Notes under the pieces: model-generated
What the model saw: only the letters and a program-made list of their open reading frames with translations
Databases searched by the model: none
Told to the model about the DNA's origin: nothing
From: Salisaeta longa DSM 21114
GTDB lineage: Bacteria; Bacteroidota; Rhodothermia; Rhodothermales; Salinibacteraceae
NCBI RefSeq assembly: GCF_000419585.1
Contig: NZ_ATTH01000001.1
Span: 394,005-458,004 of the forward strand
DNA length: 64,000 nucleotides
Direction: 5' to 3'
In this document: positions 24,136 to 38,777 of the stretch, one piece after another
How the letters are laid out: every line of letters starts with the position of its first letter
Numbering within the stretch: the stretch's first letter is position 1
Position numbers and translations under genes: made by a program

Positions 24136-24212
24136 ACCGGGGCAAGGCGCTTGTTGTAACGTTCTGGCAGCTTGCTACGTATGATGCAACTGCTACTTGA
24201 AAGCGCTTTTTC

Positions 24213-24630
24213 TCACGTTCCCCAACTGCCCCACACGCGGAGCGACGGCAGCAATAACAGGTCGCCTACGAGGCGGGCCGCGAGCGCTGCGTGCAAGAGC
24301 GCCGCGTGGACGTAGAAGAACGATCGATACGGGATCGGGCGGCCGAGCACCGACGGGAAGATGATGGGGGCGTGGCCGAAGATCATGCTAAAGACAAAGC
24401 CCACGAAGACGGCATGCAGCACGGCGTCGTAGAGCGGACCGGCGGCGGGATTGCCGTAAACCACCATGAGAGCCCCGCCCACGGCCAGCCATCCGTAGCC
24501 CGCGAGGAGACACACGGCGATGAAGCGCGTGAGCCCTCCGCTGTGTACCGTGCGCCGCGCAATGTCGTAAAGGGTGAGCCATGCGGCAATGGCAACAAGC
24601 GCAGCGGGGTGTGCCAGGGAGCGTCATTCA
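24213..24630 (-). pseudogene. Truncated NnrS-like / haem-copper-associated membrane protein remnant
   Basis: About 137 residues can be read in one frame to the stop at 24213. They contain three or four hydrophobic segments and phrases such as FSMIFGHAPIIFPSVLGRP and FFYVHAALLHAALAARLVGDL, typical of the C-terminal part of NnrS-like proteins of about 400 residues. An in-frame TGA immediately precedes RSLAHPAALVAIAAW, and no good start follows (a GTG at 24515 would drop the first helices). An ATG at 24631 (MNDAP) is in another frame: one added base in the adjacent C-run would join it to this frame, giving about 140 residues. It is either a decayed gene or a frameshifted short one, next to the NO-stress genes. 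Confidence 0.55.
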
Positions 24631-24697
24631 TGCGACGCGCATTCGCTGATTCGAGAAGTTGCGACCGGTGTCGTCTGACACGTCAGGATGCTAGCGC

Positions 24698-25201
24698 CTA
24701 CAAACCACCGCGTGCGAGGATGACGGCCAGGATCACGATGATGATGGACGCAACGGCCGTAAGGCGGCCCAGGTAGCTTGCGGCGCGGCGGGTCGGTGCT
24801 GCCGTGGCCTCGTCGGCTTCGATCTGCTTCATCGCGCGCGGGCCGAGATAAAAGTCGTGCACGGCGTTGGCGACGAGCACTAGCCCGACGAAGCCAAGCT
24901 TCCAGGCCAGCGCGTGGCCCCACGGCCCCTGCCATAGCGTGCCGTTCCACAGGTGCGCCCAGGTGTAGCCGTGCGCGTGCAGCAGCAGAAGGCCCGTACC
25001 CACCAGCACCCCAAGGAGCGCCCACCCCACCCACCGGAACCGCAGGCCGAGCCGGTGCAGCAGCGTGGTGCGGACGGGCGCGAGGTCGGGCGCGCGCAGC
25101 ACCGGAACGACCGCCACGCCCAAAAAGACCATCCCGCCCACCCAAACGGTGGCCGCGAGAACGTGCAGGCTTACGATGACAAGGTACCAGCCGTAGGTCA
25201 T
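24698..25201 (-). CDS. CopD-like integral membrane protein
   Basis: This protein has 167 residues with four predicted membrane helices. It starts YLVIVSLHVLAATVWVGGMV, where the His and the WVGG pattern match CopD/DUF2269-type proteins, and has two more helices before a cytosolic loop (LGPRAMKQIEADEATA) and a final helix ending VILARGGL. Such proteins are linked to copper handling or unknown redox roles; the histidines near membrane faces could bind metal or haem. It starts 6 bp after the RIC stop, so it is very likely in the same operon as RIC and the haemoglobin gene. Confidence 0.7.
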   Translation of the reverse strand: MTYGWYLVIVSLHVLAATVWVGGMVFLGVAVVPVLRAPDLAPVRTTLLHRLGLRFRWVGWALLGVLVGTGLLLLHAHGYTWAHLWNGTLWQGPWGHALAWKLGFVGLVLVANAVHDFYLGPRAMKQIEADEATAAPTRRAASYLGRLTAVASIIIVILAVILARGGL

Positions 25202-25207
25202 GGGCCC

Positions 25208-25939
25208 CTAGGATGTTTGTGCGCGCTGGGTCTCAAGCCGGCGGCGCGCCCGCGGAAACAGGATGCTGTTCTCCTTATGCACGTGCCGGTGCATGTCCGA
25301 TGCCAGCGTGTCCAATCCACTCAGCAAGCGCCGAAAACTGCCGCAGGCATCGGGCGGCGGCGTGAAGTCATCGGACAAGGTGCGCAGCGTGCGAAGGGCC
25401 GCGCCGGCTTCGTCGTGTTCGTCCTCGGCCGATGCAATCAGGGCCTCGGCCTCATCCTCGGTCGGCCGCGCATCCCCGGCAGCCAGCGACCGGATCATGG
25501 GGAAGATGGCGGTCTCCTCTTTCTGCATGTGCGCATTGAGTTCCAGCCGCAGCCGCCCAAACACATCCGCGGCGTCGGTGAGCCAGGGGTGGTCGTGACT
25601 GTGCACCTTGCTGACGCGGGCAAAGAGGGCGTCGAGCTCGGGGAGCGTGCGGCGCAGATAGGCGTGGTGCGTATCGACGATGTGGTCGATGAGTGCGGGA
25701 AGGGGACGCGAGGTCCAATCGGTGGCGGGCGCCGTGGCATCGGGCGCGGGCGGGGCAGCGTCGAGCGCTTCAAGCGCCGCCGCCACGGTGCTGGGGGCAA
25801 GCCCGCGCGCCTGGCAGGCCGCTTCAAGGGTTTGGTCGCCGCCGCAGCAGTAATCCAGGTCGAGGCGGTCAAAGAGCACAGCGCGGCGGTCGTTCTGGGC
25901 AACGAGGTCGCCAAGGGATGTTTGGAGGAGGGACGTCAT
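25208..25939 (-). CDS. ric: Iron-sulfur cluster repair di-iron protein (RIC/ScdA/YtfE)
   Basis: This protein has 243 residues. The N-terminal DUF542 domain has the signature LDYCCGG (about 30-36). The C-terminal hemerythrin-like domain carries the iron ligands in DHIVDTHHAYL, HDHPWL, HMQKEETAIFP, EDEHDEAG and HRHVHKENSILFP. RIC proteins restore Fe-S clusters damaged by nitric oxide or peroxide and may release NO from dinitrosyl iron. It lies between a truncated haemoglobin gene and a CopD-like gene and close to the nirK/nos operon, so a role in NO resistance during denitrification fits well. Confidence 0.95.
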   Translation of the reverse strand: MTSLLQTSLGDLVAQNDRRAVLFDRLDLDYCCGGDQTLEAACQARGLAPSTVAAALEALDAAPPAPDATAPATDWTSRPLPALIDHIVDTHHAYLRRTLPELDALFARVSKVHSHDHPWLTDAADVFGRLRLELNAHMQKEETAIFPMIRSLAAGDARPTEDEAEALIASAEDEHDEAGAALRTLRTLSDDFTPPPDACGSFRRLLSGLDTLASDMHRHVHKENSILFPRARRRLETQRAQTS

Positions 25940-26004
25940 GGGATGGTATAGCAGTTAGGAGACAAAAGAGGGATGCCGGAGGCTGTGGGCCGAGCGCGCG
26001 CTGG

Positions 26005-26427
26005 CTATGGCGAGGGCGCCGCATTCGGGTTGAAGCGTGCCGTACCATCACCGGCCTCTAAAACGCCGAGCTTCGACTGAAAGACGGTGGCGATTTGGCG
26101 GGCGCGCTGCTTCATACGCGCGGCCCGCGGCCCGGCGAAGCGCGCATCGACGGTCGCCTCAAACCGCTGAAGCCACCGGCGAAAGTGGCGCGCCTGCAGC
26201 CCCTCAAGCTGGGCGTGGGCGTCGAATGGGCGGCCGCGGTAGGTCCCAGACTGAAAGACGATGGACGTCCAAAAGGCCACCAGGCGGGGCACGTGCGCAT
26301 CGAGGTCGACCGATGCAAAATACGGCCCGAGGAGCGGGTCTTCGGCAATGCCGCGGTAAAACGCGCTGACCACGGCGTGCACATCATCACGCGATTGTAT
26401 ATCGGCGGGCGGCGGGGGCTCGGGCAT
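26005..26427 (-). CDS. Group III truncated haemoglobin
   Basis: This protein has 140 residues from the ATG at 26427; an upstream in-frame start would add 15 unlikely residues. The 2-on-2 globin core begins DVHAVVSAFYRGIAEDPLLGPYF. AFWTSIVFQSGTYRGRPFDAH and then LQARHFRRWLQRFEATVD supply the proximal-side histidine and the family's conserved aromatic residues. Group III globins bind NO or peroxide and are linked with NO detoxification. The gene is followed after 65 bp by ric, and upstream of it lies an AT-rich palindromic region (26587-26617) similar to that before nirK. Confidence 0.9.
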   Translation of the reverse strand: MPEPPPPADIQSRDDVHAVVSAFYRGIAEDPLLGPYFASVDLDAHVPRLVAFWTSIVFQSGTYRGRPFDAHAQLEGLQARHFRRWLQRFEATVDARFAGPRAARMKQRARQIATVFQSKLGVLEAGDGTARFNPNAAPSP

Positions 26428-26586
26428 CACAATCGAAGCATTCGAGGAAAGAGGGCGGGCGTCCAGGCGCACCGCGGCGCGCGATGCATCGCAGCGGCAG
26501 CGATGTTACAGTCGGTTGCATGCGATCAGCCGCCACGGCATCGACCTCTACTGCGGACGGCATCAAAGTTTTCCGCCTTTCGTTGT

Positions 26587-26617
26587 TTAATTAGCCAATT
26601 AACGTTTTATTTAAATA
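26587..26617. promoter_or_regulatory. AT-rich palindromes upstream of the haemoglobin gene
   Basis: TTAATT-AGCC-AATTAA (26587-26602) is a perfect 6-bp inverted repeat, followed by the perfect palindrome TATTTAAATA (26608-26617). They lie about 160-190 bp before the haemoglobin start. The second word resembles the GTATTTAATA words before nirK. A regulator site or promoter is inferred from symmetry and the drop in GC; no binding data support it. Confidence 0.4.
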
Positions 26618-26660
26618 GAAAAGTTTCGGATCGGGAGCTGCTTCCCCACCAGGACAATCG

Positions 26661-26790
26661 AATGCGCCATTGTGAATCCGTCCTGAGCGCTTCAAAGATG
26701 GCTTCTGCTGCCGGGACATGTCGTCGTCATTTTGCAAATCACCACTTAACGGCGTCAGCACGCATAAGCAAGATTGATACAACGGCCCTG
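26661..26790 (+). repeat. Interspersed repeat, element B copy 1
   Basis: Matches 27178-27309 in direct orientation. Shared blocks include GTGAAYCCG, CTGAGCGCTTYAAAG, TCATTTTGCAAATCAC and TCAGCACG, spaced alike, ending in a GCCCTGG word. Divergence between the copies is substantial. There is no coding signal. Confidence 0.7.
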
Positions 26791-26802
26791 GACATCTTGG
26801 AA

Positions 26803-26870
26803 GGGGGCTTCAAGTCATGCCGCAGGTGAGGCCGAAGGCCATCCCGCAGGGCAATCTCCGCAATGGGGCG
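26803..26870 (+). repeat. Partial copy of element A
   Basis: A short copy of the central block of element A: GGGGGCTTCAAGTCATGCCG, then CAGGTGAGGCCGAAGGCCAT, then GGGCAATCTCCGCAATGGGG. It compares with 27061-27131, where CTTTAGGTCGTGCCGTAGG replaces the first part. It lies immediately before the full copy at 26897. Confidence 0.6.
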
Positions 26871-26896
26871 TTTCTGCCCGTACATGGAGATCGCCG

Positions 26897-27148
26897 CGTC
26901 ATTCACGTGCGTTCATTCCTCGCGGTGACAAGTAGAGGGCTGCTGTTTTAGCGCGTTGGGCGTGCAGATGCCCAATTCTGTCCGAACAGCCACCTGAACC
27001 ACCAACGCTTCGTTTTCTCAATTTCCCTCTGTTGTCATTGCGAGCGACCAACGGGAGCGTGGGGGCCTTTAGGTCGTGCCGTAGGTGAGGCCGAAGGTCA
27101 TCGTGAAAAGGCAATCCCCACAAGGGAGCAAAAACCTGCCGCACAATG
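26897..27148 (+). repeat. Interspersed intergenic repeat, element A copy 2
   Basis: Block-by-block match to 6755-7060 in the opposite orientation. It begins CGTCATTCACGTGCGTTCAT, contains GCGTTGGGCGTGCAG and GTCATTGCGAGCGA, and ends GAGCAAAAACCTGCCGCACA. The two copies lie about 20 kb apart. With element B on either side, this fills the 26428-27315 gap, which holds no gene I can support. Confidence 0.75.
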
Positions 27149-27177
27149 CAATCAGCAGGATATGCGGGAAAAGCAAC

Positions 27178-27309
27178 GGCATGAGGAATCGTGAACCCGC
27201 GCTGAGCGCTTTAAAGCCAGCTCACACTTCCGGGGCACATCATGGTCATTTTGCAAATCACTTTTGATCGGCCTCAGCACGAACCTAAAATTGATGCGAT
27301 TGCCCTGGC
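27178..27309 (+). repeat. Interspersed repeat, element B copy 2
   Basis: Direct repeat of 26661-26790 (see there). The two B copies flank the element-A block, giving the order B, A fragment, A, B. It ends a few bases before the stop of the SufR-like regulator gene. Confidence 0.7.
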
Positions 27310-27315
27310 TTCCCC

Positions 27316-28008
27316 TCACGGCGCCTGTTCGTCTGCTGTGGGCACCGGAGGTTCGTCGGTCGAAGGACTGGGTACGGGAAGCGCGTATGAGCAGGAAGCC
27401 GCACCATCGGGCATGTAGCGCGTCCGCTCCACATCGGTGTCGAAAAGCGCCTCATAGAACGCAGCCTCTAGGCGGCACGGTAGGTGGGTGCGCTTCACGG
27501 TCTCGGGAAACGGGCAGTTGCACTCGCGGATGGTAAGTTGGCCCCCGTCGTGTTCAACCTTCGGCATAAAGCCCTCCGCCTCAAGAATGCGCAGAAGCAC
27601 GCGCAGCCGCGCCTCAAGGTCGTCGGAAGCTTCGGCGTCGAGTTGCTGCTGCACGCGCTGGGTGCGCTCGGCCCAGTAGTGTTCAAAAAACGAAGCGACA
27701 AGGTCCTCGGCTGCGTGATCCTCCAGAAACGTAATCAGTTCGCCCAGCAGCTCGCCATCGCGGGACGGAAAGAGGATTTGCGCCCGCGGGGTCATCTTGT
27801 AATACAAACGCGGCCGCCCGCGCCCTTCCGACCGCGTAAAGCGCTCCACAAGGTCTTTTTCTTCCAGCCGCAGCAAGTGCTCGCGCACGGTGGTGCGCGC
27901 CATGTCCAGTGCCTGCATGGCGTCATCGAGCGATAGGCTGCCGCGTCGTTTAATAAGCTGGAGCAGCCGGCGGCGCGTGTCGGATCCTACAAGGTCGAGG
28001 GCACGCAT
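27316..28008 (-). CDS. SufR-like iron-sulfur transcriptional regulator
   Basis: This protein has 230 residues from the ATG at 28008; a TTG at 28083 would add an unlikely extension. The N-terminal winged helix-turn-helix (ALDLVGSDTRRRLLQLIKRRG, TTVREHLLRLEEKDLVER) is of the ArsR/DeoR type. The C-terminal part has the Cys pattern of SufR-family Fe-S sensors: RECNCPFPETV, then THLPCRLEAAFYEALFD, then GAASCSYALP. Such proteins hold an Fe-S cluster and change DNA binding when it is lost or damaged by NO or oxygen. It points away from nirK across a 328-bp region holding palindromic AT-rich sites, so control of nirK/nos and perhaps of the haemoglobin-ric genes is inferred. Confidence 0.82.
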   Translation of the reverse strand: MRALDLVGSDTRRRLLQLIKRRGSLSLDDAMQALDMARTTVREHLLRLEEKDLVERFTRSEGRGRPRLYYKMTPRAQILFPSRDGELLGELITFLEDHAAEDLVASFFEHYWAERTQRVQQQLDAEASDDLEARLRVLLRILEAEGFMPKVEHDGGQLTIRECNCPFPETVKRTHLPCRLEAAFYEALFDTDVERTRYMPDGAASCSYALPVPSPSTDEPPVPTADEQAP

Positions 28009-28230
28009 GAAAGAATACTCGTCTGTGGAGGAGCGGGCGACGGGGGCGCTAGCGGATGCAAGTACGCGCAAGATTGGACGCAAGATAACGTACGGAGAAT
28101 CGCGCGCGCCGGTTCAATGCCGGCATGAACCCCCTTCCATGAAGAGAAGATCAACACCAGACGAAGGAGGTGCCAACGAATCACCGAGATTGTGTGAGTC
28201 CGCCATTTGGCCCGAACTTTCTTAGCGTTC

Positions 28231-28275
28231 GTATTTAGTAGCTACCAGTATTTAATACAACGTACTATTAAATAC
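28231..28275. promoter_or_regulatory. Iterated operator-like palindromes upstream of nirK
   Basis: In the regulator-nirK gap, GTATTTAAT (28248-28256) and ATTAAATAC (28267-28275) form a perfect 9-bp inverted repeat with a 10-bp spacer. A third copy, GTATTTAGTA, stands at 28231-28240. Each arm is also a near-palindrome (GTATT-T-AATAC). The repeat is 62 bp from the nirK ATG, in the expected promoter range. The remainder of 28009-28336 shows no gene. Confidence 0.6.
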
Positions 28276-28336
28276 AGAAAGACGGGCACGGGCTGACGTC
28301 TTTCCACTGATTTTGCCAACTAACCCGCTCGGTACG

Positions 28337-29434
28337 ATGCTACAGACCAACCGCAGGACCGCATCCGATCGTTCAAATGTTTCGCGCCGCTCGTTCATGA
28401 AGGGCCTGGGCACCGCGGCTGCCGCCGGAGGCTTCATGGCCTCGGGGCTGGAGGCCTTTGGTGCCGACTACGCCATGGAGCGGCCCGATATTCCGCTTGG
28501 GCCGGTTGGCCGCAAGGTCAACCGCGTGGCAGCCGACCCGACCGACATTCCGCCGCCCATCCGCCGGCACACCTCCAAGACGCACGACATTACCCTCACT
28601 TCAGAAGAGGTGGTGGCTGAGATTGAGCCCGGCGTCACGTTCAACTTCATGACGTTTGGCGGTCAGGTGCCGGGTCCTATGATTCGGGTGCGACAGGGCG
28701 ATACCGTCAACCTAACCCTGACTAACGACGCCTCCAACCGCATGCCGCACAACGTGGACTTCCACGCGGTGTACGGGCCGGGCGGCGGCGCCGAGGCCAC
28801 GCTTGTAGCGCCGGGGCAGTCGCGCTCGTTTAGCTTTCAGGCCATGTACCCCGGCGCCTTCATCTACCACTGTGCGGTGCCCAACCTGGATTATCACATC
28901 GCCAGCGGCATGTTTGGGATGATCGTGGTAGAACCGCCCGAGGGCTTACCCCCGGTCGACCACGAGTTTTACATCGGGCAGCACGAGGTGTACACGAACA
29001 AAAAGACGGGCGAAGCAGGGCATCACGCGTTCGACTTTGACGCTATGATGGACGAAAAGCCGTCCTATGTGCTTCTAAACGGCGCAAAATACGGCTTAAC
29101 ACCCGATCGGTTGGGCGCGATGGAGGCCAACGTGGGCGAGACGGCGCGCGTGTTTATGGTAACCGGCGGCCCAAACCTCACCAGCAGCTTCCACCCCATT
29201 GGCAACGTGTGGACCGACGTGTGGCGCGAAGGCGCCATTCAAAGTGCACCGGAGAAGAACGTGCAAACCACGCCGGTGGCGCCCGGAAGCTGCGGCATCT
29301 TCCACATGAAGTTTCCCGTGCCGGGGCCCGTCTTTTTGGTCGACCACGCGCTGTCGCGCGTTGCGCGGAAAGGCGCAAAGGCCACCATCAACGTGACCGG
29401 CCCCGAGCAGCCCGACATCTTTGCGGCGCGCTAG
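28337..29434 (+). CDS. nirK: Copper-containing nitrite reductase, Tat-exported (AniA-like class)
   Basis: This protein has 365 residues from the ATG at 28337; a TTG 24 bp upstream is less likely. A twin-arginine signal SRRSFMKGLG is at the N-terminus. Two cupredoxin domains follow. Type 1 and type 2 copper ligands are seen in MPHNVDFHAVYG, YHCAVPNLDYHIASGM and LVDHALSR. The catalytic Asp is in NVDFHA and the catalytic His in SSFHPIGN, the arrangement of the AniA-like NirK class. It reduces nitrite to nitric oxide in the periplasm. First gene of the denitrification operon, downstream of the operator-like palindromes. Confidence 0.96.
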   Translation: MLQTNRRTASDRSNVSRRSFMKGLGTAAAAGGFMASGLEAFGADYAMERPDIPLGPVGRKVNRVAADPTDIPPPIRRHTSKTHDITLTSEEVVAEIEPGVTFNFMTFGGQVPGPMIRVRQGDTVNLTLTNDASNRMPHNVDFHAVYGPGGGAEATLVAPGQSRSFSFQAMYPGAFIYHCAVPNLDYHIASGMFGMIVVEPPEGLPPVDHEFYIGQHEVYTNKKTGEAGHHAFDFDAMMDEKPSYVLLNGAKYGLTPDRLGAMEANVGETARVFMVTGGPNLTSSFHPIGNVWTDVWREGAIQSAPEKNVQTTPVAPGSCGIFHMKFPVPGPVFLVDHALSRVARKGAKATINVTGPEQPDIFAAR

Positions 29435-29445
29435 GCGCCCGGTCC

Positions 29446-29495
29446 GCGCGGAGGGGGCTTGCAAGCACGCAGGGGCCTTCCGCGCTCCTTTTAGT
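29446..29495 (+). terminator. Hairpin after nirK, possible attenuator
   Basis: GCGCGGAGG (29446-29454) can pair with CCTTCCGCGC (29476-29485) with one bulge, followed by TCCTTTTAG. It stands between the nirK stop and the first cupredoxin gene, so it may reduce read-through into the rest of the cluster. Confidence 0.4.
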
Positions 29496-29516
29496 CCTTC
29501 CTTGATGAGGTTCGTT

Positions 29517-29975
29517 ATGACGACTCGTGTATTTGCCTCCCTCCTTTTGTTGCTCTTGGCCCTCGGGGTCGTAGGCCCAACCACCGGCCTGGCCACCGAT
29601 GCGCCCCCGCGCACCATCACCATTGAGCCCCAGGGCAACCAGCTGGCGTTTGCCACCAAAGCGTTCACCGTACAAGCCGGCGAGACGGTGCGGCTGGTAT
29701 TCAAGAACACGGCCACCAGTCCGGCCATGCAGCACAACGTGGTGCTCCTGAACACGATGGACGACGCCGCAGCCACCCGCGTGGGGCAGGCCGCGCTCTC
29801 GGCAGCAGACTTCGTGCCCGACGACCCGGCAGTGATGGCCGCTACGCCGGTGGCCAAGCCCGGCGAAACGGTGTCCGTCACGTTCACGGCCCCCGAAGCG
29901 CCCGGCAAGTACCGGTTCCTGTGCACGTTCCCGGGCCACTATGTGTCGATGCAAGGCACCATGACAGTCAAGTAG
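29517..29975 (+). CDS. Periplasmic cupredoxin (azurin/plastocyanin-like)
   Basis: This protein has 152 residues. The ATG at 29517 has GATGAGG six bases before it as ribosome binding site, preferred over an ATG at 29505. A signal peptide (about 1-27) precedes one blue-copper domain. Ligands are in MQHNVVLLN (His) and CTFPGHYVSMQGTM (Cys, His, Met). It is a soluble one-electron carrier by fold. It is a paralogue of the next gene, 140 bp downstream, and the pair lies between nirK and nosZ, so it probably feeds electrons to one or both reductases. Confidence 0.9.
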   Translation: MTTRVFASLLLLLLALGVVGPTTGLATDAPPRTITIEPQGNQLAFATKAFTVQAGETVRLVFKNTATSPAMQHNVVLLNTMDDAAATRVGQAALSAADFVPDDPAVMAATPVAKPGETVSVTFTAPEAPGKYRFLCTFPGHYVSMQGTMTVK

Positions 29976-30116
29976 GGGAATGCCCCGCGAGGGATGCTTC
30001 AAAGCTTCTTTAGAATAAATCTAATGACGTGATTGCAGCCTGCAGGCAGGCAAGACACGCTCCGTTGTACGACCGCTAAGTACCGCTGTATACTTTTTAC
30101 CAACCCAACCCATCCC

Positions 30117-30653
30117 ATGCAAACGTTTTTCTCGCTTCGCCGCTTGTCTTTGCTGGCGCTTTCGGTGCTGTTTCTTACCGCCTGCGGCGGTTCTAGCGGC
30201 GACGCCTCATCCGCTTCTGCAGAGCAGCAGGCCACCGCTTCGACGTCGCAAGCCACACCGGCCGGCGTTGACAAGCTGGTGACCATCGAGCCGAAAGGCA
30301 ACCAGATGAAGTACAAGCAAACGGAGTTTACGGTAGCGCCCGGGGCCAAGGTGAAGCTCGTGTTTGACAACACCGCAACCAGCCCGTCCATGCAGCACAA
30401 CGTGGTGGTGCTTACCAAAGGCCCCACGGATGAGCACTTTCAGGAGGTGGGTACCACCGGGATGCAGGCCGGCATGAGCAACGACTACGTCCCCGACCTG
30501 CCGCTTGTGTTGGCTGCCACCCCAATTGCCAAGCCCGGCGAAACCGTTTCGGTAACCTTCACGGCGCCGTCAGAGACGGGCGACTACGGCTACGTGTGCA
30601 CCTTCCCCGGCCACTGGGCCACCATGCAAGGCGTTATGCACGTCCGCTCGTAG
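30117..30653 (+). CDS. Lipoprotein cupredoxin (azurin-like)
   Basis: This protein has 178 residues from the ATG at 30117. The lipobox is LTAC, followed by a Ser/Ala/Thr linker that would hold the domain away from the membrane. The blue-copper domain has MQHNVVVLTK and CTFPGHWATMQGVM. It shares TIEPKGNQMKYKQTEF-type spacing with its soluble paralogue upstream and the phrase AKPGETVSVTFTAP exactly. As a membrane-tethered electron carrier next to nosZ it could replace the c-type cytochromes that usually serve clade II nitrous-oxide reductases; none is in the window. Confidence 0.9.
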   Translation: MQTFFSLRRLSLLALSVLFLTACGGSSGDASSASAEQQATASTSQATPAGVDKLVTIEPKGNQMKYKQTEFTVAPGAKVKLVFDNTATSPSMQHNVVVLTKGPTDEHFQEVGTTGMQAGMSNDYVPDLPLVLAATPIAKPGETVSVTFTAPSETGDYGYVCTFPGHWATMQGVMHVRS

Positions 30654-30695
30654 GACGGCGCGCCGCGTTTACTTTACCCATACCCCTTCAATCCC

Positions 30696-32564
30696 ATGCG
30701 TTCTCGAATATCGCAGTCCCTTTCGTTTGTGCTTCTTCTCGCGTTCGGCCTTGGTCTGGCCGGGTGCGGCACGGAATCGTCCTCTACAGGTGCAGACGGC
30801 GGGGCACCGGCCTCGTACGTGCCGCCCGGCGAGAAAGACAACTACTACCTGTTCTACTCCGGCGGCCACTCGGGCAACGTGTGGGTGGCGGGCCTCCCCT
30901 CGCTCCGCATGATCCAAAAGATTCCGGTGTTTACGCCGGCGCCGGGGATGGGCTACGGCTACACGAAGGAGACGAAAGAAATGATGGGCGAGTACACCTG
31001 GGGCGATGTGCACCACCCGGGCCTCTCCAAAACCAACGGGCGGTACGACGGCCGCTGGCTCTTCGTGAACGATAACGCCAACAACCGGATTGCCCGCATC
31101 AGCCTGCGCGACTTCAAAACGAAGCAAATCCTGGGCCCCATCCCCAACTCGATGGGCAACCACGGATCGTCGTTCGTAACGCCGAACACCACGTACGTCC
31201 TCGTCGCAACGCGCTTTTCGGTGCCACTGCCCAAGGGGACGTATGCGCCCGTGGAGACGTACGAGGAAAACTTTAACGGCATCGTCAGCGGCGTCAAGGT
31301 CGACTCCACCACGGGCGAGATGTCCGTCGGCTGGCAGATCAAAACGCCGCCCTTTAACTGGGACCTTGGCTCTACCGGAAAGGGCCCGAGCCATGGCTGG
31401 GCGTTCTGGACGTCCTACAACACCGAGATGGCGCACGACTCGCTGGAGATCAACGCGAGCCAGCGCGATCGGGACTACGCGGCCTTCGTGAACTGGAAGC
31501 GCGCCGCCGAGATTGTGGCGAACGGCAACGCCGGAACCCGCAACGGCGTGCCCTTCATCGACCCGGCGGAGCACGAGGGCGTGATGTACTACGTGCCGGT
31601 TAGCAAGTCGCCGCACGGCATCGACGCGTCGCCCTCGGGCCGTTGGATCGTGGCCTCCGGAAAACTACAGCCAACAGCCACCGTGTTTGACTTCAAGCAG
31701 GTGCTTACGGCCATCGAAAACAAGGACTTTCAGGGCGAATTCCGCGGCGTACCTGTCATCAATTACGAGAGCATCGTGGAGGGCGAAGTCCCGGTGGGGC
31801 AAGGTCCGCTGCACACGCAGTTCGATGGCGAAGGCAACGCCTACACGTCGCTGTACATCGAGTCGTCGGTGGCCAAGTGGAAGCTCCCGCCGTGGGACGA
31901 AGCCACCGCGCAGGACATGAGCAAAGCCGTGGTCGACAAGATCAGCGTGCACTACAACGTGGGCCACATCGTCATTGGCGGCAGCGACACCAAAGACCCG
32001 TATGGGGAGTGGCTCGTGGCCATGAACAAGCTGTCGAAGGGACGCCACATCAGCGTGGGCCCATCGCAGCCCGAAACGAGCCAGCTCATCGACATCTCGG
32101 GGAAAGAGATGAAGATGGTGGCCGAGGCCTACACGCCGCCCGAGCCGCACTTTGCGCAGGTGGTGCACAAAGACGTCATCAACCCGGTTGAGGTCTACGA
32201 GCAGGAAAATAACACGCACCCCGAGGCCGTGTGGGAGCAGCAAAACACCGGCGTTAAGCGCACCGGCCCCAACGAGGTGACGGCGCATGTCATCGCCAAA
32301 CGCAGCCAATACTATCCGGACGAGATTGAGGCGCAGGTGGGCGACACGGTGATCATTCACCTGACGAACATCGAGCAGGTATCGGACATGATCCACGGCT
32401 TTGGCATTGCCGAACACAACGTCAATGCGATTGTGGATCCGGGCGAGACCAAAACCATGGAGTTTACGGTGCAGAAGGCGGGCGTCTTCCCGTTCTATTG
32501 CACGAACTTCTGCTCGGCGCTCCACCAGGAGATGCAGGGCTACCTGGCCGTGCGCCCGCAATAA
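30696..32564 (+). CDS. nosZ: Nitrous-oxide reductase, clade II (Sec-type lipoprotein)
   Basis: This protein has 622 residues. The signal ends in a lipobox-like GLAGC rather than a Tat motif, so it is exported unfolded and lipid-anchored, as in clade II enzymes. The seven-bladed propeller holds the CuZ histidines, for example WGDVHHPG, SMGNHGSS and SKSPHGIDASPSG. The C-terminal cupredoxin domain has the CuA site with CTNFCSALHQEM at 602-613 and an upstream His in DMIHGFGI. It reduces N2O to N2 in the periplasm. It follows the lipoprotein cupredoxin after 42 bp, and a strong hairpin follows the stop. Confidence 0.97.
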   Translation: MRSRISQSLSFVLLLAFGLGLAGCGTESSSTGADGGAPASYVPPGEKDNYYLFYSGGHSGNVWVAGLPSLRMIQKIPVFTPAPGMGYGYTKETKEMMGEYTWGDVHHPGLSKTNGRYDGRWLFVNDNANNRIARISLRDFKTKQILGPIPNSMGNHGSSFVTPNTTYVLVATRFSVPLPKGTYAPVETYEENFNGIVSGVKVDSTTGEMSVGWQIKTPPFNWDLGSTGKGPSHGWAFWTSYNTEMAHDSLEINASQRDRDYAAFVNWKRAAEIVANGNAGTRNGVPFIDPAEHEGVMYYVPVSKSPHGIDASPSGRWIVASGKLQPTATVFDFKQVLTAIENKDFQGEFRGVPVINYESIVEGEVPVGQGPLHTQFDGEGNAYTSLYIESSVAKWKLPPWDEATAQDMSKAVVDKISVHYNVGHIVIGGSDTKDPYGEWLVAMNKLSKGRHISVGPSQPETSQLIDISGKEMKMVAEAYTPPEPHFAQVVHKDVINPVEVYEQENNTHPEAVWEQQNTGVKRTGPNEVTAHVIAKRSQYYPDEIEAQVGDTVIIHLTNIEQVSDMIHGFGIAEHNVNAIVDPGETKTMEFTVQKAGVFPFYCTNFCSALHQEMQGYLAVRPQ

Positions 32565-32586
32565 CCGACTAGACTACGTCGCTGCC

Positions 32587-32618
32587 AGCACCAGGGCGTC
32601 ACCAAACGCCCTGGTGCT
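32587..32618 (+). terminator. Perfect 13-bp hairpin between nosZ and the downstream nos genes
   Basis: AGCACCAGGGCGT and ACGCCCTGGTGCT pair perfectly around CACCAA. No U-run follows, so it may act as an mRNA-stabilising or processing end for nosZ, or as a partial terminator that lowers expression of the maturation genes. Confidence 0.65.
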
Positions 32619-32657
32619 TGGTTGTCGCTGTGCTTACCTCCTGATGACGTGTGTGCT

Positions 32658-33284
32658 ATGCGCCTTTTCCCGCAGTCTCTTCCCGACGTTCTCGATCGCC
32701 GCGTAACCGGCACGGGGCGCCTCCTCCTGATGGCGGGGGCGCTTCTCATCGCGGGCGCTATCGTGCTTCCGCTCTGGCAGATTCACCTCGTGGCCCCGCA
32801 GTACCAAGAGGGCCTCGACATGTACATCTACAGCCACAAGCTGGTGGGCGGCAACGAGGGGCAAGACATCACCGAGATCAACGGCCTGAACCACTACATT
32901 GGGATGCAGGCCATCCAGGAATCTGACTTTACCGAGATGCAGTGGATTCCGTTTGCGCTGGGGGTGTTTGTCTTGCTGGCCCTACGGGCGGCGGTATTTG
33001 CCAAAGTGAGCGCCGTGGTGGATTTGACTGTGCTGTTTGTGTACTTTGGCGCATTTTCCATGTACCGGTTCTACTACCGGCTGTACACGTATTCGCACAC
33101 CCTCGATCCGAGGGCACCAGTCGACATTGACCCGTTTATGCCGGCGCTCATCGGCAAAAACCAGATTGCCAACTTCACGCAGTACAGCTTTCCGCGCGAG
33201 GGCTCGGCGTTGCTGTTGCTGGCGATTGTTTGCTTTGTAGGCGCCATGTGGCTGTCGCGGCCCGCGCATACATCCGAGGCTTAA
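32658..33284 (+). CDS. Nos-cluster integral membrane protein (NosB-like)
   Basis: This protein has 208 residues from the ATG at 32658. About four membrane helices are predicted: LLLMAGALLIAGAIVLPLW, then FALGVFVLLALRAAVFAKV, then VVDLTVLFVYFGAFSMY, and LLLLAIVCFVGAMWL near the end. Loops contain HLVAPQYQEGLDMYIYSHKLVGG and several histidines and tyrosines. Proteins of this type follow nosZ in clade II clusters and are called NosB in some; their role is unsettled, perhaps electron transfer or assembly. Only the position and layout support the name here. Confidence 0.75.
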   Translation: MRLFPQSLPDVLDRRVTGTGRLLLMAGALLIAGAIVLPLWQIHLVAPQYQEGLDMYIYSHKLVGGNEGQDITEINGLNHYIGMQAIQESDFTEMQWIPFALGVFVLLALRAAVFAKVSAVVDLTVLFVYFGAFSMYRFYYRLYTYSHTLDPRAPVDIDPFMPALIGKNQIANFTQYSFPREGSALLLLAIVCFVGAMWLSRPAHTSEA

Positions 33285-33298
33285 GCCCCCTTCGCACG

Positions 33299-34651
33299 AT
33301 GGTCACACGACTACGCTTTCAGAGGCTTTGGCAGGCGGCGCGCTGCGTTGTTCTGGGGCTGGCGGTCGCCGGTCTGGCCGCGCCGGCCGCGGGGCAGACG
33401 CTAGCGCAACGCCTGGCCGCTGCTGCGCCCGGCGATACGGTGGTGGTGCGCGGCGGCATCCATCCCGGGCCGTTTTCGATTGACACGCCGCTCGTTCTCA
33501 TCGGGCGGGGCCGGCCGGTGCTCAGCGGCAACGGAGCGACGCACGTCGTCACGATCAACGCGCCGCATGTGACGGTGCAAGGGTTTGTCATTCGCCGGTC
33601 GGGGAAGCAACTCAACCAAGATCATGCCGGCGTCATGGTTCGCGCGCCGCGCGCTACCGTGCGCGACAACGTGCTGCGCGATGTGCTGCACGGCATCTAC
33701 GTGAAGGGCGTCGGGCATGCGTACATCCAAAACAACCGCATTACCGGCCAAAAAACGCGCGCGCTGGCGCAGCGGGGCAACGGCATCCACCTGTGGAAGT
33801 CGACCCACAACCGCATCGCCGGCAACCGGATTCGGCATACCCGCGACGGCATCTACTTCTCGTTTGCCGACCGCTCGCAGGTGCTGCGCAACACCGTGCA
33901 TCACGTGCGCTACGGCCTGCACTACATGTACTCCGACCACAACACGTTTGCGCACAACGTTTTTTATGGCAACGTGTCGGGGTCGGCATTGATGTACTCA
34001 TCGGAGGTGACGGCGCGCCACAACACCTTCCGTAACAACCGGTCGCAGGGCGGCTACGGACTCCTCGTGCAGTCGCTGGAGGCGTCCACGTTTACCGACA
34101 ATCGCCTGATCGGCAACACGTTTGGGGTATATCTGGAAAACACGAGCAACAGCCGCTTTGAAGGGAACGTAGTGGCGCGCAACTACACGGGCGTGCGGCT
34201 TACGGGCAGCTCGATGGGCAATCGTTTCAGCGGAAATGTGGTGGAGGGCAACCTGCACACCGCGGCGCTCGCGGGCACCCAGGGGGCCAACACGTGGCAC
34301 ATTGGCGGCCGTGGCAACTACTGGGGCCCTACGGGATTGCTGGACCTCACCGGCGACGGCGTGAGCGAGTGGCCGCACCGCACCGTCGATCTGATGGCGG
34401 TGGCCCGGGCCGATTTTCCGCTCGTTGGCGTGCTGGCCGGGAGTCCGGGCCTTGCGCTTGCGGAGCGCGTCGTTCAGCGTGTGCCGCTGGCGTCGGTGCC
34501 CACAATCGTCGATCCGCACCCGCTGATGTACGCGCCGGGCGCCCAGGCGGGCGGCGGCTGGCCGGGCTGGGCCGTGGGCCTGCTGGGCGCTGGGGTGCTG
34601 GTTGGGTGGGGCGGCTACCGATGGATTCTTTCGCTACGCAACGGGGCATGA
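33299..34651 (+). CDS. nosD: NosD, copper-site maturation beta-helix protein
   Basis: This protein has 450 residues from the ATG at 33299, 14 bp after the preceding stop. A signal peptide (about 1-33) precedes a right-handed beta-helix with carbohydrate-binding/CASH-type repeats such as HNRIAGNRIRHTRDGIYF, VLRNTVHHVRYGLHYMYSDHN and RFEGNVVARNYTGVRL. A hydrophobic C-terminal segment (WAVGLLGAGVLVGWGGYRWI) anchors it. NosD works with the NosFY transporter to assemble the CuZ centre of NosZ. Its TGA overlaps the NosF start as ATGA. Confidence 0.94.
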   Translation: MVTRLRFQRLWQAARCVVLGLAVAGLAAPAAGQTLAQRLAAAAPGDTVVVRGGIHPGPFSIDTPLVLIGRGRPVLSGNGATHVVTINAPHVTVQGFVIRRSGKQLNQDHAGVMVRAPRATVRDNVLRDVLHGIYVKGVGHAYIQNNRITGQKTRALAQRGNGIHLWKSTHNRIAGNRIRHTRDGIYFSFADRSQVLRNTVHHVRYGLHYMYSDHNTFAHNVFYGNVSGSALMYSSEVTARHNTFRNNRSQGGYGLLVQSLEASTFTDNRLIGNTFGVYLENTSNSRFEGNVVARNYTGVRLTGSSMGNRFSGNVVEGNLHTAALAGTQGANTWHIGGRGNYWGPTGLLDLTGDGVSEWPHRTVDLMAVARADFPLVGVLAGSPGLALAERVVQRVPLASVPTIVDPHPLMYAPGAQAGGGWPGWAVGLLGAGVLVGWGGYRWILSLRNGA

Positions 34652-35307
34652 TGCTTGAAGTGACGGGACTGACAAAGGCGTTTGGGGCGACCCCGGTGCT
34701 CGATGGGGCGTCGCTCACCGTGGCGCCTGGCACGCTGGTGGCGCTGGAAGGCGCCAACGGCACGGGTAAGACGACGACCCTGCGCTGCTGCGCGGGCCTC
34801 GTGCGGCCCGATGCGGGCACGGTGCACGTTGAGGGCCTCGATGTGCAGGCGCGCCGTGCCGAGGCCCTGCAGCGGCTCGGCTATTTGCCGCAAAACGTGC
34901 AGTTTCACGAGGCCCTGACGCCCCGCCGCGTGCTCCGGTTTTATGCGGCCCTCCGCGGCGTATCCGTAGAGCGTGCGCACGAGGCGCTGGCACGTGTCGA
35001 ACTCCAATCTGCGGCCGACCGCCCCTGCGGCGCCCTCTCGGGCGGCATGCGGCAACGCTTGGGACTGGCGGTGCTGGGCTTGGCGGCGGTGCCGGTGCTC
35101 CTCCTCGACGAACCCGGGTTGAGCCTCGACCCCACGTGGCGCGCCTGGCTGATGGAGTGGCTGCGGGCACGCACCGATGCCGGCGCGGCTGTGCTCCTCA
35201 GCACGCACCTGACGGAGGTGTGGGCGCCGGTGGTGGATCGTCGCCTCCGGTGCGCCAACGGACACATCGCGCCGGTGGAAGCGTCCGCGTCGGCCGCCCG
35301 CTCGTAA
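34648..35307 (+). CDS. nosF: NosF, ABC transporter ATPase for NosZ maturation
   Basis: This protein has 219 residues. The ATG at 34648 overlaps the nosD stop, with a second ATG directly after. Walker A is GANGTGKTT, the signature LSGGMRQRL, Walker B VLLLDEPGLSLDP (Gly in place of the usual Thr after DEP) and the H-loop STHLTEVW. It energises the NosDFY complex that delivers material for the CuZ sulfide/copper centre. It is followed by the permease NosY after 26 bp. Confidence 0.93.
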   Translation: MMLEVTGLTKAFGATPVLDGASLTVAPGTLVALEGANGTGKTTTLRCCAGLVRPDAGTVHVEGLDVQARRAEALQRLGYLPQNVQFHEALTPRRVLRFYAALRGVSVERAHEALARVELQSAADRPCGALSGGMRQRLGLAVLGLAAVPVLLLDEPGLSLDPTWRAWLMEWLRARTDAGAAVLLSTHLTEVWAPVVDRRLRCANGHIAPVEASASAARS

Positions 35308-35333
35308 TCATTTGCTCTGGCTCTCACGATCGT

Positions 35334-36131
35334 ATGCCTACGCTTTCTCATCCGCCGACCCATCGAGCGGCCCTACGCGCCGTGGTGCGCCGCGAGGTGT
35401 TTACCGCGCGCCACAACCGGTACCTGCACGCGGTGGCGCTTGTGCTGCTAGCGGGCGGCCTGGGCGTAGCTGCAACCGCCGGGCGTCCCGCGGCCGTCGC
35501 GTATGGCTTGTTCACGCTGCTTCTGTATGCCGTGCCGCTGTTTGGCGTGCTGGCGGGTGTAAGTAGCGCCCAGGACACGGCGGCCGAGCGCCCCCTACTG
35601 CACACGCAACCGGTCCCGCCGCGGTGGTTTGTGCTGGGCAAGGCCGCCGTGCTGAGTCTGCTGCTCGTGGCGAGCATTGGGCTGGTGGTAGGTGTGGGCT
35701 GGGGGCGTGGGGTATCGCTCGCTGCAGGAGCCATGCTGTGGGGGCTGGGGTCAGCGCTCGCCCTGGTGAGCGTGAGCGCGGGCCTCGCGGTGGGCTATGC
35801 GGCGCAGTCGCGGGCGCGTGGTTTGATGGGCGCGCTCTTGTGTTGGTTTGCGGCGTTTGGCCTCTACGACGGGGCGGCACTGCTCCTGGCGGGCACCGAG
35901 GCGGCGCAGCAGTGGCCGGCCCTGTGGATGGCGGTGCTGCTCATCAATCCGATCGATGCGGTGCGCCTGACCGGGTTGTTTGGGCTAGAGGGCGTGCCGT
36001 TCTCGGTTGCGGGGGCACCAAGCTGGATGCCGGCGGTCATCGCAGGCCTGCCGGCGTGGGTGGTGCTCCTCACGCTGCTGTGGGCCGGCGGGCTGTTGGC
36101 CTACGCGGTGCGCACAAGCACCCAACCGTAA
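35334..36131 (+). CDS. nosY: NosY, ABC transporter permease for NosZ maturation
   Basis: This protein has 265 residues and six predicted membrane helices. The N-terminus RAVVRREVFTARHNRYLHAVAL matches the NosY/ABC-2 permease entry, followed by ERPLLHTQPVPPRWFVLGK in the first cytosolic loop and LLINPIDAVRLTGLFGLEG in the later loop, a phrase conserved in NosY. Last gene of the denitrification operon. NosL, the copper chaperone that usually completes such clusters, does not follow it in the window. Confidence 0.93.
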   Translation: MPTLSHPPTHRAALRAVVRREVFTARHNRYLHAVALVLLAGGLGVAATAGRPAAVAYGLFTLLLYAVPLFGVLAGVSSAQDTAAERPLLHTQPVPPRWFVLGKAAVLSLLLVASIGLVVGVGWGRGVSLAAGAMLWGLGSALALVSVSAGLAVGYAAQSRARGLMGALLCWFAAFGLYDGAALLLAGTEAAQQWPALWMAVLLINPIDAVRLTGLFGLEGVPFSVAGAPSWMPAVIAGLPAWVVLLTLLWAGGLLAYAVRTSTQP

Positions 36132-36202
36132 CTAGGCTATGTCTGACGCCCCATGCGGCACGTCGACGGCCGCCGGCAGGAGCCGCGGGCGACGATCGAC
36201 AA

Positions 36203-36238
36203 CAAAAACGCCGATGCCCACAAGGAGCACCGGCGTTT
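36203..36238 (-). terminator. Rho-independent terminator of tRNA-Thr
   Basis: Read on the minus strand, AACGCCGGTGC and GCATCGGCGTT form a stem with one mismatch, followed by a run of T. It lies directly downstream of the tRNA gene. Confidence 0.7.
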
Positions 36239-36250
36239 GCGAATCAGCGG

Positions 36251-36323
36251 AGCTGACGAGCGGACTTGAACCGCTAACCTGCTCATTACAAGTGAGCTGC
36301 TCTACCAGTTGAGCTACGTCAGC
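36251..36323 (-). tRNA. tRNA-Thr (anticodon TGT)
   Basis: The minus strand folds as a cloverleaf of 73 bases. The acceptor GCTGACG pairs with CGTCAGC, the D arm is GCTCAACTGGTAGAGC, the anticodon arm GCTCACTTGTAATGAGC carries anticodon TGT, and the T arm is GCGGTTCAAGTCCGC. The CCA end is not encoded. A terminator hairpin follows. Confidence 0.95.
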
Positions 36324-36419
36324 GTGTGGATGGCAGCATACAGCATGTGCTGGCTCTGCCTGTAGGTCGTGGTGCTGTCGACCGAAGGGCGCCGGGGAGG
36401 TTCCGCATTCACAGGGGCT

Positions 36420-37040
36420 TCAGGCGGTATCGTCCGATGCCCGGAGGTATTTCTGCCCGAGCCATGCCAGGCCCACCAGAAAGAGCACCACCAGCACGAC
36501 GCGTCCATACGCCCGGAGGTATTCGCCAATGATGCGCCAGTTTTCCCCTACCGCGTAGCCGGCATACGTGATGATGCTTATCCACACCGCGGCGCTGATC
36601 GTGCAGTAAATGGCCGTGCGCGTGGCGTCCATCTGCGCGGCGCCCACCGTAAGCGAAATCACGGAGCGCGCACCGGAGAGAAACCGGTTGGCCAGCACCA
36701 CGCCAAAGCCGTAGCGGTCCATCCACTGCTGGGCGCGTTCGAGCCCCTCCGACGGGAGCCAGCGCATCCGGTCGGGGTCTAGGGCCGCGGCCCCAAAGCG
36801 CCGGCCGATGGCGTACATCGTCATGAAGCCGGCCGCGCCGCCCGCCGTAGCCAAAACGATAACAACCAAGAGATTGAGGCGTCCGATGCCCGCGAGATAG
36901 CCCCCAAACACGACCACGAGGTCGCCGGGAATGGGCGGCACAACGTTTTCGCCGTAGGCCACAAGGAGCAGCACCGCGTACGCCCATGCAGGCGCCAGCA
37001 GCTCCATCCACTCGAAAAAGTTGCCAACCCATTCAATCAT
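36420..37040 (-). CDS. DedA-family membrane protein
   Basis: This protein has 206 residues from the ATG at 37040, which overlaps the ispF stop as ATGA. Hydrophobic helices surround the family signatures [19 protein letters not shown] and [19 protein letters not shown], with the conserved Arg/Gly pairs of the DedA/SNARE-associated fold. DedA proteins flip or recycle undecaprenyl phosphate or polar lipids at the inner membrane. Coupling with ispF links it loosely to isoprenoid supply. Confidence 0.9.
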
Positions 37041-37528
37041 GCGGCCTCGGGCGTTTCGGTTGGATGGAGCGCGCACGTCGCGTAGGCCGCGGCGCCTTCG
37101 CCGGTGCCCACGAAGCCCATGCCTTCACTTGTGGTGGCCTTAACGGACACCTGCGTGACGTTCAGGGCTAGCGTGCGTGCAATGATTTGCCGCATGGCAT
37201 AGATGTACGGGCGCAGCTTGGGACGCTCTAGCACCACGGTTGCGTCGATATTTCCAATCGCGTAGCCCTGCGCGTGTACAGACGTACCCACGCGGGCCAG
37301 GAGGACGGTGCTGTCGGCCCCTTTCCAGGCTGCGTCGGTGTCGGGGAAGTGCGCGCCGATGTCGCCCAACGCGGCCGCGCCCAACAGGGCATCGGCGATG
37401 GCATGCAGCAGCACGTCGGCATCCGAGTGGCCGTCGAGGCCCTTCTCGAAGGGGATGGTGACGCCGCCCAGAATGAGCCGGCGGCCTTCCACGAGGCGGT
37501 GGACGTCGTATCCAAACCCTACCCGCAT
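37037..37528 (-). CDS. ispF: 2-C-methyl-D-erythritol 2,4-cyclodiphosphate synthase
   Basis: This protein has 163 residues from the ATG at 37528, the usual IspF length. [12 protein letters not shown] supplies the zinc ligands Asp8 and His10, and [20 protein letters not shown] supplies His42 and the active-site loop. [11 protein letters not shown] and [15 protein letters not shown] are the remaining signatures. It catalyses the cyclisation step of the MEP isoprenoid pathway. It overlaps dedA by 4 bp and lies after a terminator that follows sucC. Confidence 0.96.
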
Positions 37529-37549
37529 GCGCTCAAGAGGTCTGTGATG

Positions 37550-37583
37550 CACAAACGGCGGGCCGCCCCTCGGCCGCCCGCCT
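37550..37583 (-). terminator. Terminator hairpin after sucC
   Basis: An 11-bp stem with one mismatch (GGCGGGCGGCC with GGCGGCCCGCC on the minus strand) around GAGG, followed by GTTTG. It lies between the sucC stop and the ispF start. Confidence 0.6.
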
Positions 37584-37604
37584 GCGAATGACTCCACGCT
37601 GCCG

Positions 37605-38777
37605 TTACGCAGTCAGTGCCGCTTCCACCTTGTCGGCGGCTTCCTTCAGCAGCACCGCCGATTCAATTTCGACGTCGCTGGCCTCCAGCAGCTCCTTGGC
37701 CTCCTCGGCATTGGTGCCTTGCAAGCGCACGATGAGCGGCACGTGAATGTCGATGTTCTTCGCGGCCTCAATGACGCCCTTCGCCACGCGGTCGCAGCGC
37801 ACAATGCCGCCGAAGATGTTGACGAGGATTGCCTCCACGTTCTCATCTTTCAGGATGATGCGGAAGGCTTCCTCGACGGTTTCGGCGTTGGCCGTGCCGC
37901 CCACATCCAGAAAGTTGGCCGGCTCGCCGCCCGAGAGCTTGATAATGTCCATCGTGGCCATGGCCAGGCCGGCGCCGTTCACCATGCAGCCCACATTGCC
38001 GTCGAGCTTGATGTAGCTGAGGCCGTGCTCGCTGGCCTCTACCTCGGTGGGGTCTTCCTCGTGGATGTCGCGCAGGTCGGCGAGGTCTTTGTGACGGAAG
38101 AGCGCGTTGTCGTCGAGATTGACCTTCGCATCGACGGCCACAATGTCGCCGTCGGGCGTGCGCACCATCGGGTTGATCTCGGCAATGGTGCTGTCGGTCT
38201 CTTCAAAGGCCTCGTACAGGGCCATGATAAAGCGCACGCACTGCTTGAAGGCATCGCCCTCCAAACCCAGCCCGAAGGCCAGCTTGCGTGCCTGAAACGG
38301 CCGCAGCCCTAGCGTCGGGTCTATCCACGCTTTGTGGATGGCGTCCGGGTTCTCCTCGGCAACGGTTTCAATTTCTACGCCGCCTTCGCTAGAGACCATG
38401 ATCACGTTCATGCTCTTGGCGCGGTCGAGCGTCACGCCCACATAGTACTCCTGCGCGATGTCAACGCCATCGGTCACAAGGATCTTGCGCACCTTCTGGC
38501 CTTCGGGGCCGGTTTGGTGCGTGACGAGCTGCATGCCTAGGATGTCGCTGGCATGCGTGCGCACCTCATCCACCGACTCGGCAAGCTTTACGCCGCCGCC
38601 CTTTCCGCGGCCGCCCGCGTGAATTTGCGCCTTTACGACAAAGAGCGAGGCGCCGTCTTCCTTAAGCTCCTCGGCAGCAGCAACGGCTTCGTCAACCGTC
38701 TCGGCGACCACGCCGCCGGGAATGGGTACGCCGTACGAACGGAGAATGTCTTTCGCTTGGTACTCGTGGACTTTCAT
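37605..38777 (-). CDS. sucC: Succinyl-CoA synthetase (ADP-forming), beta subunit
   Basis: This protein has 390 residues from the ATG at 38777; an open frame extends 51 bp further but [12 protein letters not shown] is the family start. The ATP-grasp domain shows [18 protein letters not shown] and [15 protein letters not shown]. The CoA-binding/ligase domain has [30 protein letters not shown] and [10 protein letters not shown]. It makes ATP from succinyl-CoA in the citric-acid cycle with the alpha subunit SucD, which is not next to it. It diverges from the LptF/G-like gene. Confidence 0.97.

Follow-up and report, generated by a model that had tools for sequence, protein, structure and literature searches.

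Only one enzyme, nitrous oxide (N2O) reductase (NosZ), is known to act as a biological sink for N2O, and it is limited by the supply of copper to its CuZ centre. NosL is regarded as a dedicated copper chaperone of this centre (PMC6530538). Among described systems, the Bacteroidota clade II cluster has the order cytc-nosZ-nosB-nosL-nosD-nosF-nosY, and fusions of NosB with NosL are known, for example from Flavobacterium and Dyadobacter (PMC9697520). Here, we describe a block of eight genes at 28313-36131 of a 64,000-nucleotide stretch of DNA (the whole of which we call the window) from Salisaeta longa DSM 21114, a bacterium of salt-lake type whose genome (G000) comprises 3.40 Mb in three contigs and is 98.5% complete. 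The block shares with the Bacteroidota cluster the class of NosZ, the NosB, NosD, NosF and NosY proteins and the gene order; in contrast, it has neither a NosL domain nor a cytochrome gene before nosZ, carries cupredoxins instead, and encodes a NosZ that is 45-48% identical. A clade I cluster from Methylocystis, nosRZDFYX, also lacks nosL, and other copper proteins are thought to substitute for it (PMC11102522); however, its TAT-type (twin-arginine translocation) NosZ and its NosR and NosX set it apart as an unrelated event. At the level of genomes, nir and nosZ without a nitric oxide (NO) reductase gene, nor, is a named class, the 'initiator-terminators', whose share of denitrifier genomes is 4% overall and 9% within Bacteroidota (PMC12569097). 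S. longa has the same set, and its missing NO step fits this class and is not new in itself; the class, however, is silent on operon make-up and on NosL. As a whole, the locus is best explained by the joining of two modules, one built on nirK and the other an azurin-fed, NosL-free nos module, in a cell with no dedicated NO reductase (NOR), a reading to which we give a probability of roughly 0.68.

The eight genes all lie on the + strand, head to tail and tightly spaced:

28313..29434, +: nirK, copper nitrite reductase with a TAT signal (TIGR02376, 406 bits against a cut-off of 296)
29505..29975, +: azurin-like cupredoxin 1, which goes with nirK (PF00127; type 1 copper motif H...CTFPGHYVSM)
30117..30653, +: azurin-like lipoprotein cupredoxin 2, which goes with nosZ (PF00127; lipobox; CTFPGHWATM)
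30696..32564, +: nosZ, clade II, with a Sec/lipoprotein signal (TIGR04246, 816 bits)
32658..33284, +: nosB (LNHYIGM motif, homologues in the order, claudin-like predicted fold)
33299..34651, +: nosD (TIGR04247, 374 bits, over the cut-off)
34660..35307, +: nosF, ABC ATPase (PF00005, position, and a tree with other NosF proteins)
35334..36131, +: nosY, ABC permease (45-55% identity to NosY of other azurin-type operons, with no Pfam match)

A previous sequence-only reading of this stretch had proposed this gene order, which the open reading frame map and the profile scores confirm. Its coordinates also hold, except that nirK probably starts at 28313 rather than at 28337, and the gene that it could only call a membrane protein (32658-33284) can now be named NosB from its diagnostic motif. 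A terminator scan inside the block gave no signal above chance, the only direct repeats within it are the two azurin genes themselves, and the eight genes are probably expressed as one operon.

By its sequence, the window NosZ is a clade II (Sec-dependent) enzyme, passing TIGR04246 (cut-off 625) and falling below the cut-off of the TAT-type TIGR04244 with 466 bits. Compared with the structure 1qni, all seven CuZ histidines (H79, H80, H128, H270, H325, H376 and H437) and all CuA ligands (H526, C561, C565, H569 and M572) align to the same residue. The usual partners of the enzyme, however, are missing from the protein-family searches that we ran over the whole genome. There was no match to NosL (PF05573), and no small lipoprotein cytochrome c of the kind that partners NosZ, either in S. 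longa or in seven relatives with the same kind of operon (one with a broken nosZ); four ordinary control genomes were positive in this cytochrome search. Neither was a NOR found, as PF00115 gave three COX1-family proteins, all of them oxidases (caa3, ba3 and cbb3). The ba3 subunit (L002) aligns over its full length to Thermus ba3 and keeps the active-site Tyr (GHAVVYFW), by which the candidate that L002 is an eNOR was ruled out, and the cbb3 oxidase, aligned to a solved structure, keeps this Tyr too. No flavodiiron protein scored above cut-off in the genome (there was only a sub-threshold beta-lactamase-like match), and Hcp gave no match. With no NOR found, the complete denitrifier set of nir, nor and nosZ is not present in this 98.5% of the genome. 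Thus, the sequence-only reading was right that no NO reductase stands between the nitrite and N2O steps, and right that the operon lacks NosL and the cytochrome partners, an absence that the searches extend to the genome. The genes whose discovery elsewhere it had named as evidence against itself, norB, nosL and nos cytochromes, did not turn up, which supports its proposal that a cell lacking a dedicated NOR can consume nitrite and N2O; its other suggestion, a distant NO reductase, found no backing among the known types (NorB, qNor or eNOR, flavodiiron protein, Hcp). What it did not see is that these two absences go beyond a local loss and mark a monophyletic class of operon shared with Verrucomicrobiota.

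This class emerged from a survey of 114 genomes of the order Rhodothermales, 44 of which have a NosZ above cut-off, and from the mapping of 99 nos loci, which fall into three architectures. The first (type C), cytc-nosZ-nosB-nosL-nosDFY, often with nosB and nosL fused, is that of Bacteroidota and ordinary Rhodothermales. The second (type B), found in Acidobacteriota, Ignavibacteria, Kryptonium and others, combines a five-haem cytochrome with nosZ-nosB-nosD-nosF-nosL-nosY. The third (type A, or azurin-type), azurin-nosZ-nosB-nosD-nosF-nosY, has neither NosL nor cytochrome and belongs to the clade of the window and to Opitutaceae and Chthoniobacterales. It is common to six Verrucomicrobiota genomes and to seven Rhodothermales that we infer to be Salinibacteraceae-like, none of the 13 having NosL. 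This holds genome-wide for the Rhodothermales relatives and for the whole (draft) genomes of the six Verrucomicrobiota, where both controls were positive. Moreover, a more sensitive home-made NosL model was positive in 13/13 ordinary Rhodothermales nos loci and in no azurin-type locus, and a cytochrome is visible in 12 of those 13 ordinary loci, the contig of the remaining one being cut. The family of the window itself holds both kinds of NosZ, the ordinary one (G054, G076) versus the distinct one (G000, G056, G064, G065, G067, G068 and G072; broken in G073). In G067 (L037:8288-17688), a CRP-like regulator gene and the genes of a ba3 oxidase come after the azurin-type nos operon, and cbb3 lies some 6 kb beyond. 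The G073 copy (L040:5866-7152) is a decaying one, as internal stops break its nosZ and the contig lacks the remaining operon genes. Outside this class, five Pontibacter contigs (L151, L156, L164, L175 and L193) carry nosZ twice in tandem, and either copy has a cytochrome and a NosB to itself. We found no description of an azurin-linked, NosL-free clade II nosZ class, or of the structure of the Salinibacter nosZ operon, in the literature that we searched, which excluded subscription papers; an earlier mention of the class in papers on Opitutus is possible.

The closest counterparts of the S. longa operon are the Verrucomicrobiota ones (L116, L117, L118, L119, L123 and L141), which have the same genes in the same order in NosL-free genomes and a NosZ that is 63-70% identical to that of the window, versus 45-48% for ordinary Rhodothermales. 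They differ in having no adjacent nirK and in their diverged azurins, that of L141 being divergent and 1.3 kb away. In a tree of 60 NosZ sequences (branch supports are from the Shimodaira-Hasegawa-like approximate likelihood ratio test, SH-aLRT), a branch with 99% support sets all type A proteins apart. They also form one clade in the trees of NosD (99), NosB (98) and NosF (97), all with starred supports, which indicates that the operon moved as a unit. Vertical descent was rejected: the approximately unbiased (AU) test refuses a single clade for the type A and ordinary NosZ of the family (p 2e-41), and one clade for the NosZ of all sampled Rhodothermales is rejected as well (p 6e-5). One long branch of the tree, at 1.88 changes per column, is the NosZ of G037 (L043:8494-10317), probably a Rhodothermus, in which NosL lies far from nosZ. 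Since type A proteins form single clades, vertical descent is rejected and ordinary Rhodothermales loci carry NosL and a cytochrome, the phylogeny argues for the horizontal spread of a cupredoxin-wired, NosL-free nos module, joined in S. longa to a nirK-azurin module. The sister of the type A NosZ is that of a Gemmatimonadales genome (L121), which resembles S. longa in that nosZ-nosB is preceded by a gene for a plastocyanin-like lipoprotein and by a nirK-like gene (L121:5173-9833) in a genome without NosL, so the cupredoxin donor and the absence of NosL may predate type A. It is unlike S. longa in its NirK (36% identity, with a score under the NirK cut-off), in the plastocyanin-like type of its cupredoxin and in that the contig ends after nosB.

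In all three architectures nosZ is accompanied by nosB. The window NosB, a polytopic membrane protein encoded after nosZ with no Pfam or NCBIfam match, carries INGLNHYIGM; LNHYIGM is one of two motifs given for NosB, a protein without which Wolinella does not respire N2O (PMC9697520, PMC11102522). A homologue is present in 43 of the 44 NosZ genomes of the order, the single exception having its nosZ at a contig end. The predicted structure (mean predicted local distance difference test score, pLDDT, 92.8; predicted template modelling score, pTM, 0.86) led Foldseek throughout to claudins and to the auxiliary subunits known as transmembrane AMPA receptor regulatory proteins, TARPs (E 0.0017; VIA Z up to 11.6). 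The order of helices and strands is much the same, with four helices, a periplasmic beta sheet and a helix bearing LNHYIGM, while Pfam and PDB profiles showed no sequence relation between NosB and claudins; NosB is thus predicted to have a claudin/TARP-like fold. In the model, LNHYIGM sits at the end of the helix that precedes the second transmembrane helix, the place where TARPs contact their partner protein, which suggests the hypothesis that NosB is a docking subunit.

The other half of the block has a history of its own. The window NirK is 69-71% identical to the NirK of relatives in the order that are probably Rhodothermus (G036-G042) and 64% identical to one NirK of G072, and few members of the family of the window have this enzyme. 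Among the mapped nos loci of the order, only that of S. longa has nirK beside it. In these relatives (L204, L197), an azurin gene directly follows nirK. In the azurin tree, cupredoxin 1 of the window falls with an azurin linked to nirK (L204; 27 bp 3' of nirK in G037) and cupredoxin 2 with the nosZ-linked azurins of relatives, with supports of 80-93, not starred. Both proteins keep the type 1 copper ligands H, C, H and M (HN...CTFPGHxxxM), and we call them azurin-like cupredoxins because they score 65 and 69 bits, below the TIGR02695 azurin cut-off of 105. The simplest reading of these sequences is that the block may have arisen by the joining of a nirK and a nos module, each bringing its own cupredoxin.

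Several features surround the block:

25208..25939, -: RIC/YtfE-type di-iron protein for Fe-S repair (TIGR03652, 230 bits, over the cut-off; Hemerythrin and ScdA_N domains)
26005..26472, -: truncated bacterial globin (PF01152, 26 bits against a cut-off of 21)
27316..28083, -: winged-helix regulator resembling SufR, with conserved cysteines and divergently oriented to nirK (TIGR02702, 61 bits, below the cut-off of 179)
28231..28275, no strand assigned: candidate operator of three GTATTTARTA half sites, two of which form a perfect palindrome with 8-bp arms (28250-28273)
36249..36323, -: tRNA-Thr (TGT), directly downstream of nosY, the only Rfam match in 24000-38000

Relatives of the SufR-like gene adjoin NirK genes and, in G072, an eNOR-like gene. 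The candidate operator lies in the divergent promoter region of nirK and the SufR-like gene; none is expected in shuffled sequence and there is no other in the window, and no shared palindrome was found in the promoters of the nirK genes, eNOR genes and nos genes that relatives carry. At 24213-24515, beside a CopD-like gene, is a short, below cut-off fragment that resembles the C-terminus of NnrS and looks like a remnant. Together, RIC, the globin, the NnrS-like remnant and the SufR-like regulator suggest that the cell meets NO. No attachment repeats were found around the tRNA-Thr.

How could such a cell work? We propose that menaquinol would deliver electrons to alternative complex III and that this would pass them on to the azurins; these would in turn supply NirK, which would reduce nitrite to NO, and NosZ, which would reduce N2O to N2. 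Genes for alternative complex III, SCO and the caa3 oxidase are adjacent in S. longa; sequence features together with gene order identified the complex III subunits, and ActD was assigned by its own Pfam family. Because NosL is absent while the metal ligands are intact, NosZ may be matured without NosL by NosB and the NosDFY transporter, aided by copper proteins of general function, SCO among them. The NO made by NirK may be released to neighbours or slowly removed by terminal oxidases and the globin, with RIC repairing the damage. Having no dedicated NO reductase, the cell would act at both ends of denitrification and not in its middle.

Several points weigh against this proposal. At 98.5%, the genome falls short of full completeness, and the presence of an eNOR-like enzyme in two sister genomes makes a loss or an assembly gap in S. 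longa possible. The Pfam NosL model missed 7 of the 37 ordinary NosZ genomes of the order, giving it a sensitivity of about 80% there. In addition, the nos operon of G067 lacks an adjacent azurin gene, and the link between azurin and the loss of NosL rests on one evolutionary event.

The alternative that survives best, although we consider it unlikely, is that the ba3 (or cbb3) oxidase serves as the missing NO reductase, so that nitrite is fully denitrified to N2. Oxidases of both types reduce NO slowly, the S. longa ba3 is closely related to that of Thermus, and in G067 the ba3 genes directly follow the nos operon, with a cbb3 gene 6 kb further. However, both enzymes keep the Tyr of oxygen reductases where eNORs have Gln (PMC8756737), and their orthologues also occur in relatives without NirK. 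We also find it rather unlikely that one of the two azurins, or a different copper protein, stands in for NosL as copper donor to CuZ, instead of or besides carrying electrons. The loss of NosL and the gain of azurin coincide across the whole clade, and G000, G068 and G072 have two azurins each, but azurin-type sites are electron-transfer sites, the azurins of Rhodothermales and Verrucomicrobiota lie far apart in the azurin tree, and G067 does without a local azurin.

It is more doubtful that a NOR exists in the unassembled 1.5% of the genome or is too divergent to be detected. The sister genomes G068 and G072 do encode a two-subunit eNOR-like enzyme (L195:5514-7780 and L198:1896-4182), made of a CuA subunit and a subunit I in which Gln stands for Tyr (HGTQQ or HGSQQ versus the HAVVY of oxidases), the replacement that marks eNORs (PMC8756737). 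The G072 pair lies near SufR-like, RIC and azurin genes, and S. longa retains the same accessory genes. Yet PF00115 detects these sister genes at 176-183 bits and finds nothing similar in S. longa, whose assembly has just three contigs. An ordinary split cluster, with a NosL encoded at another site and eluding the Pfam model, is improbable. Pfam did overlook fused NosL domains in some relatives: the three examined of the seven missed genomes carry NosL as a domain fused to NosB and are thus no true NosL-less exceptions. The home-made model, however, recognised all 13 ordinary Rhodothermales loci and no azurin-type one, and the absence of NosL recurs in 13 genomes of two phyla. Finally, despite the broken nosZ of G073 and the lack of nosZ in several relatives, a decaying, non-functional operon in S. 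longa can hardly be credited, as none of its genes is interrupted and the ligands of CuZ and the side-chain ligands of CuA are all conserved.

Returning to the azurin-fed, NosL-free module, it is tempting to extend it to a monophyletic, mobile class of clade II nos operons in Salinibacteraceae-like Rhodothermales and Verrucomicrobiota, with Gemmatimonadota as sister, in which CuZ would be built without NosL, a cupredoxin would feed the enzyme and a claudin-fold NosB would be the only accessory needed besides NosDFY; to this generalisation we give an even chance. A natural NosL-free lineage in two phyla offers a way of testing which accessory proteins NosZ really requires, with a very small set of Z, B, D, F and Y. 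Moreover, these gene arrangements suggest that the usual haem donor of NosZ may be exchangeable for a cupredoxin. In 'Ca. Methylotropicum', a Gemmatimonadota draft genome, missing nosL and nosC were put down to fragmentation (PMC11102522). The class described here counsels caution in such cases, as the lack of nosL or nosC in a draft genome need not mean that they were lost in assembly.

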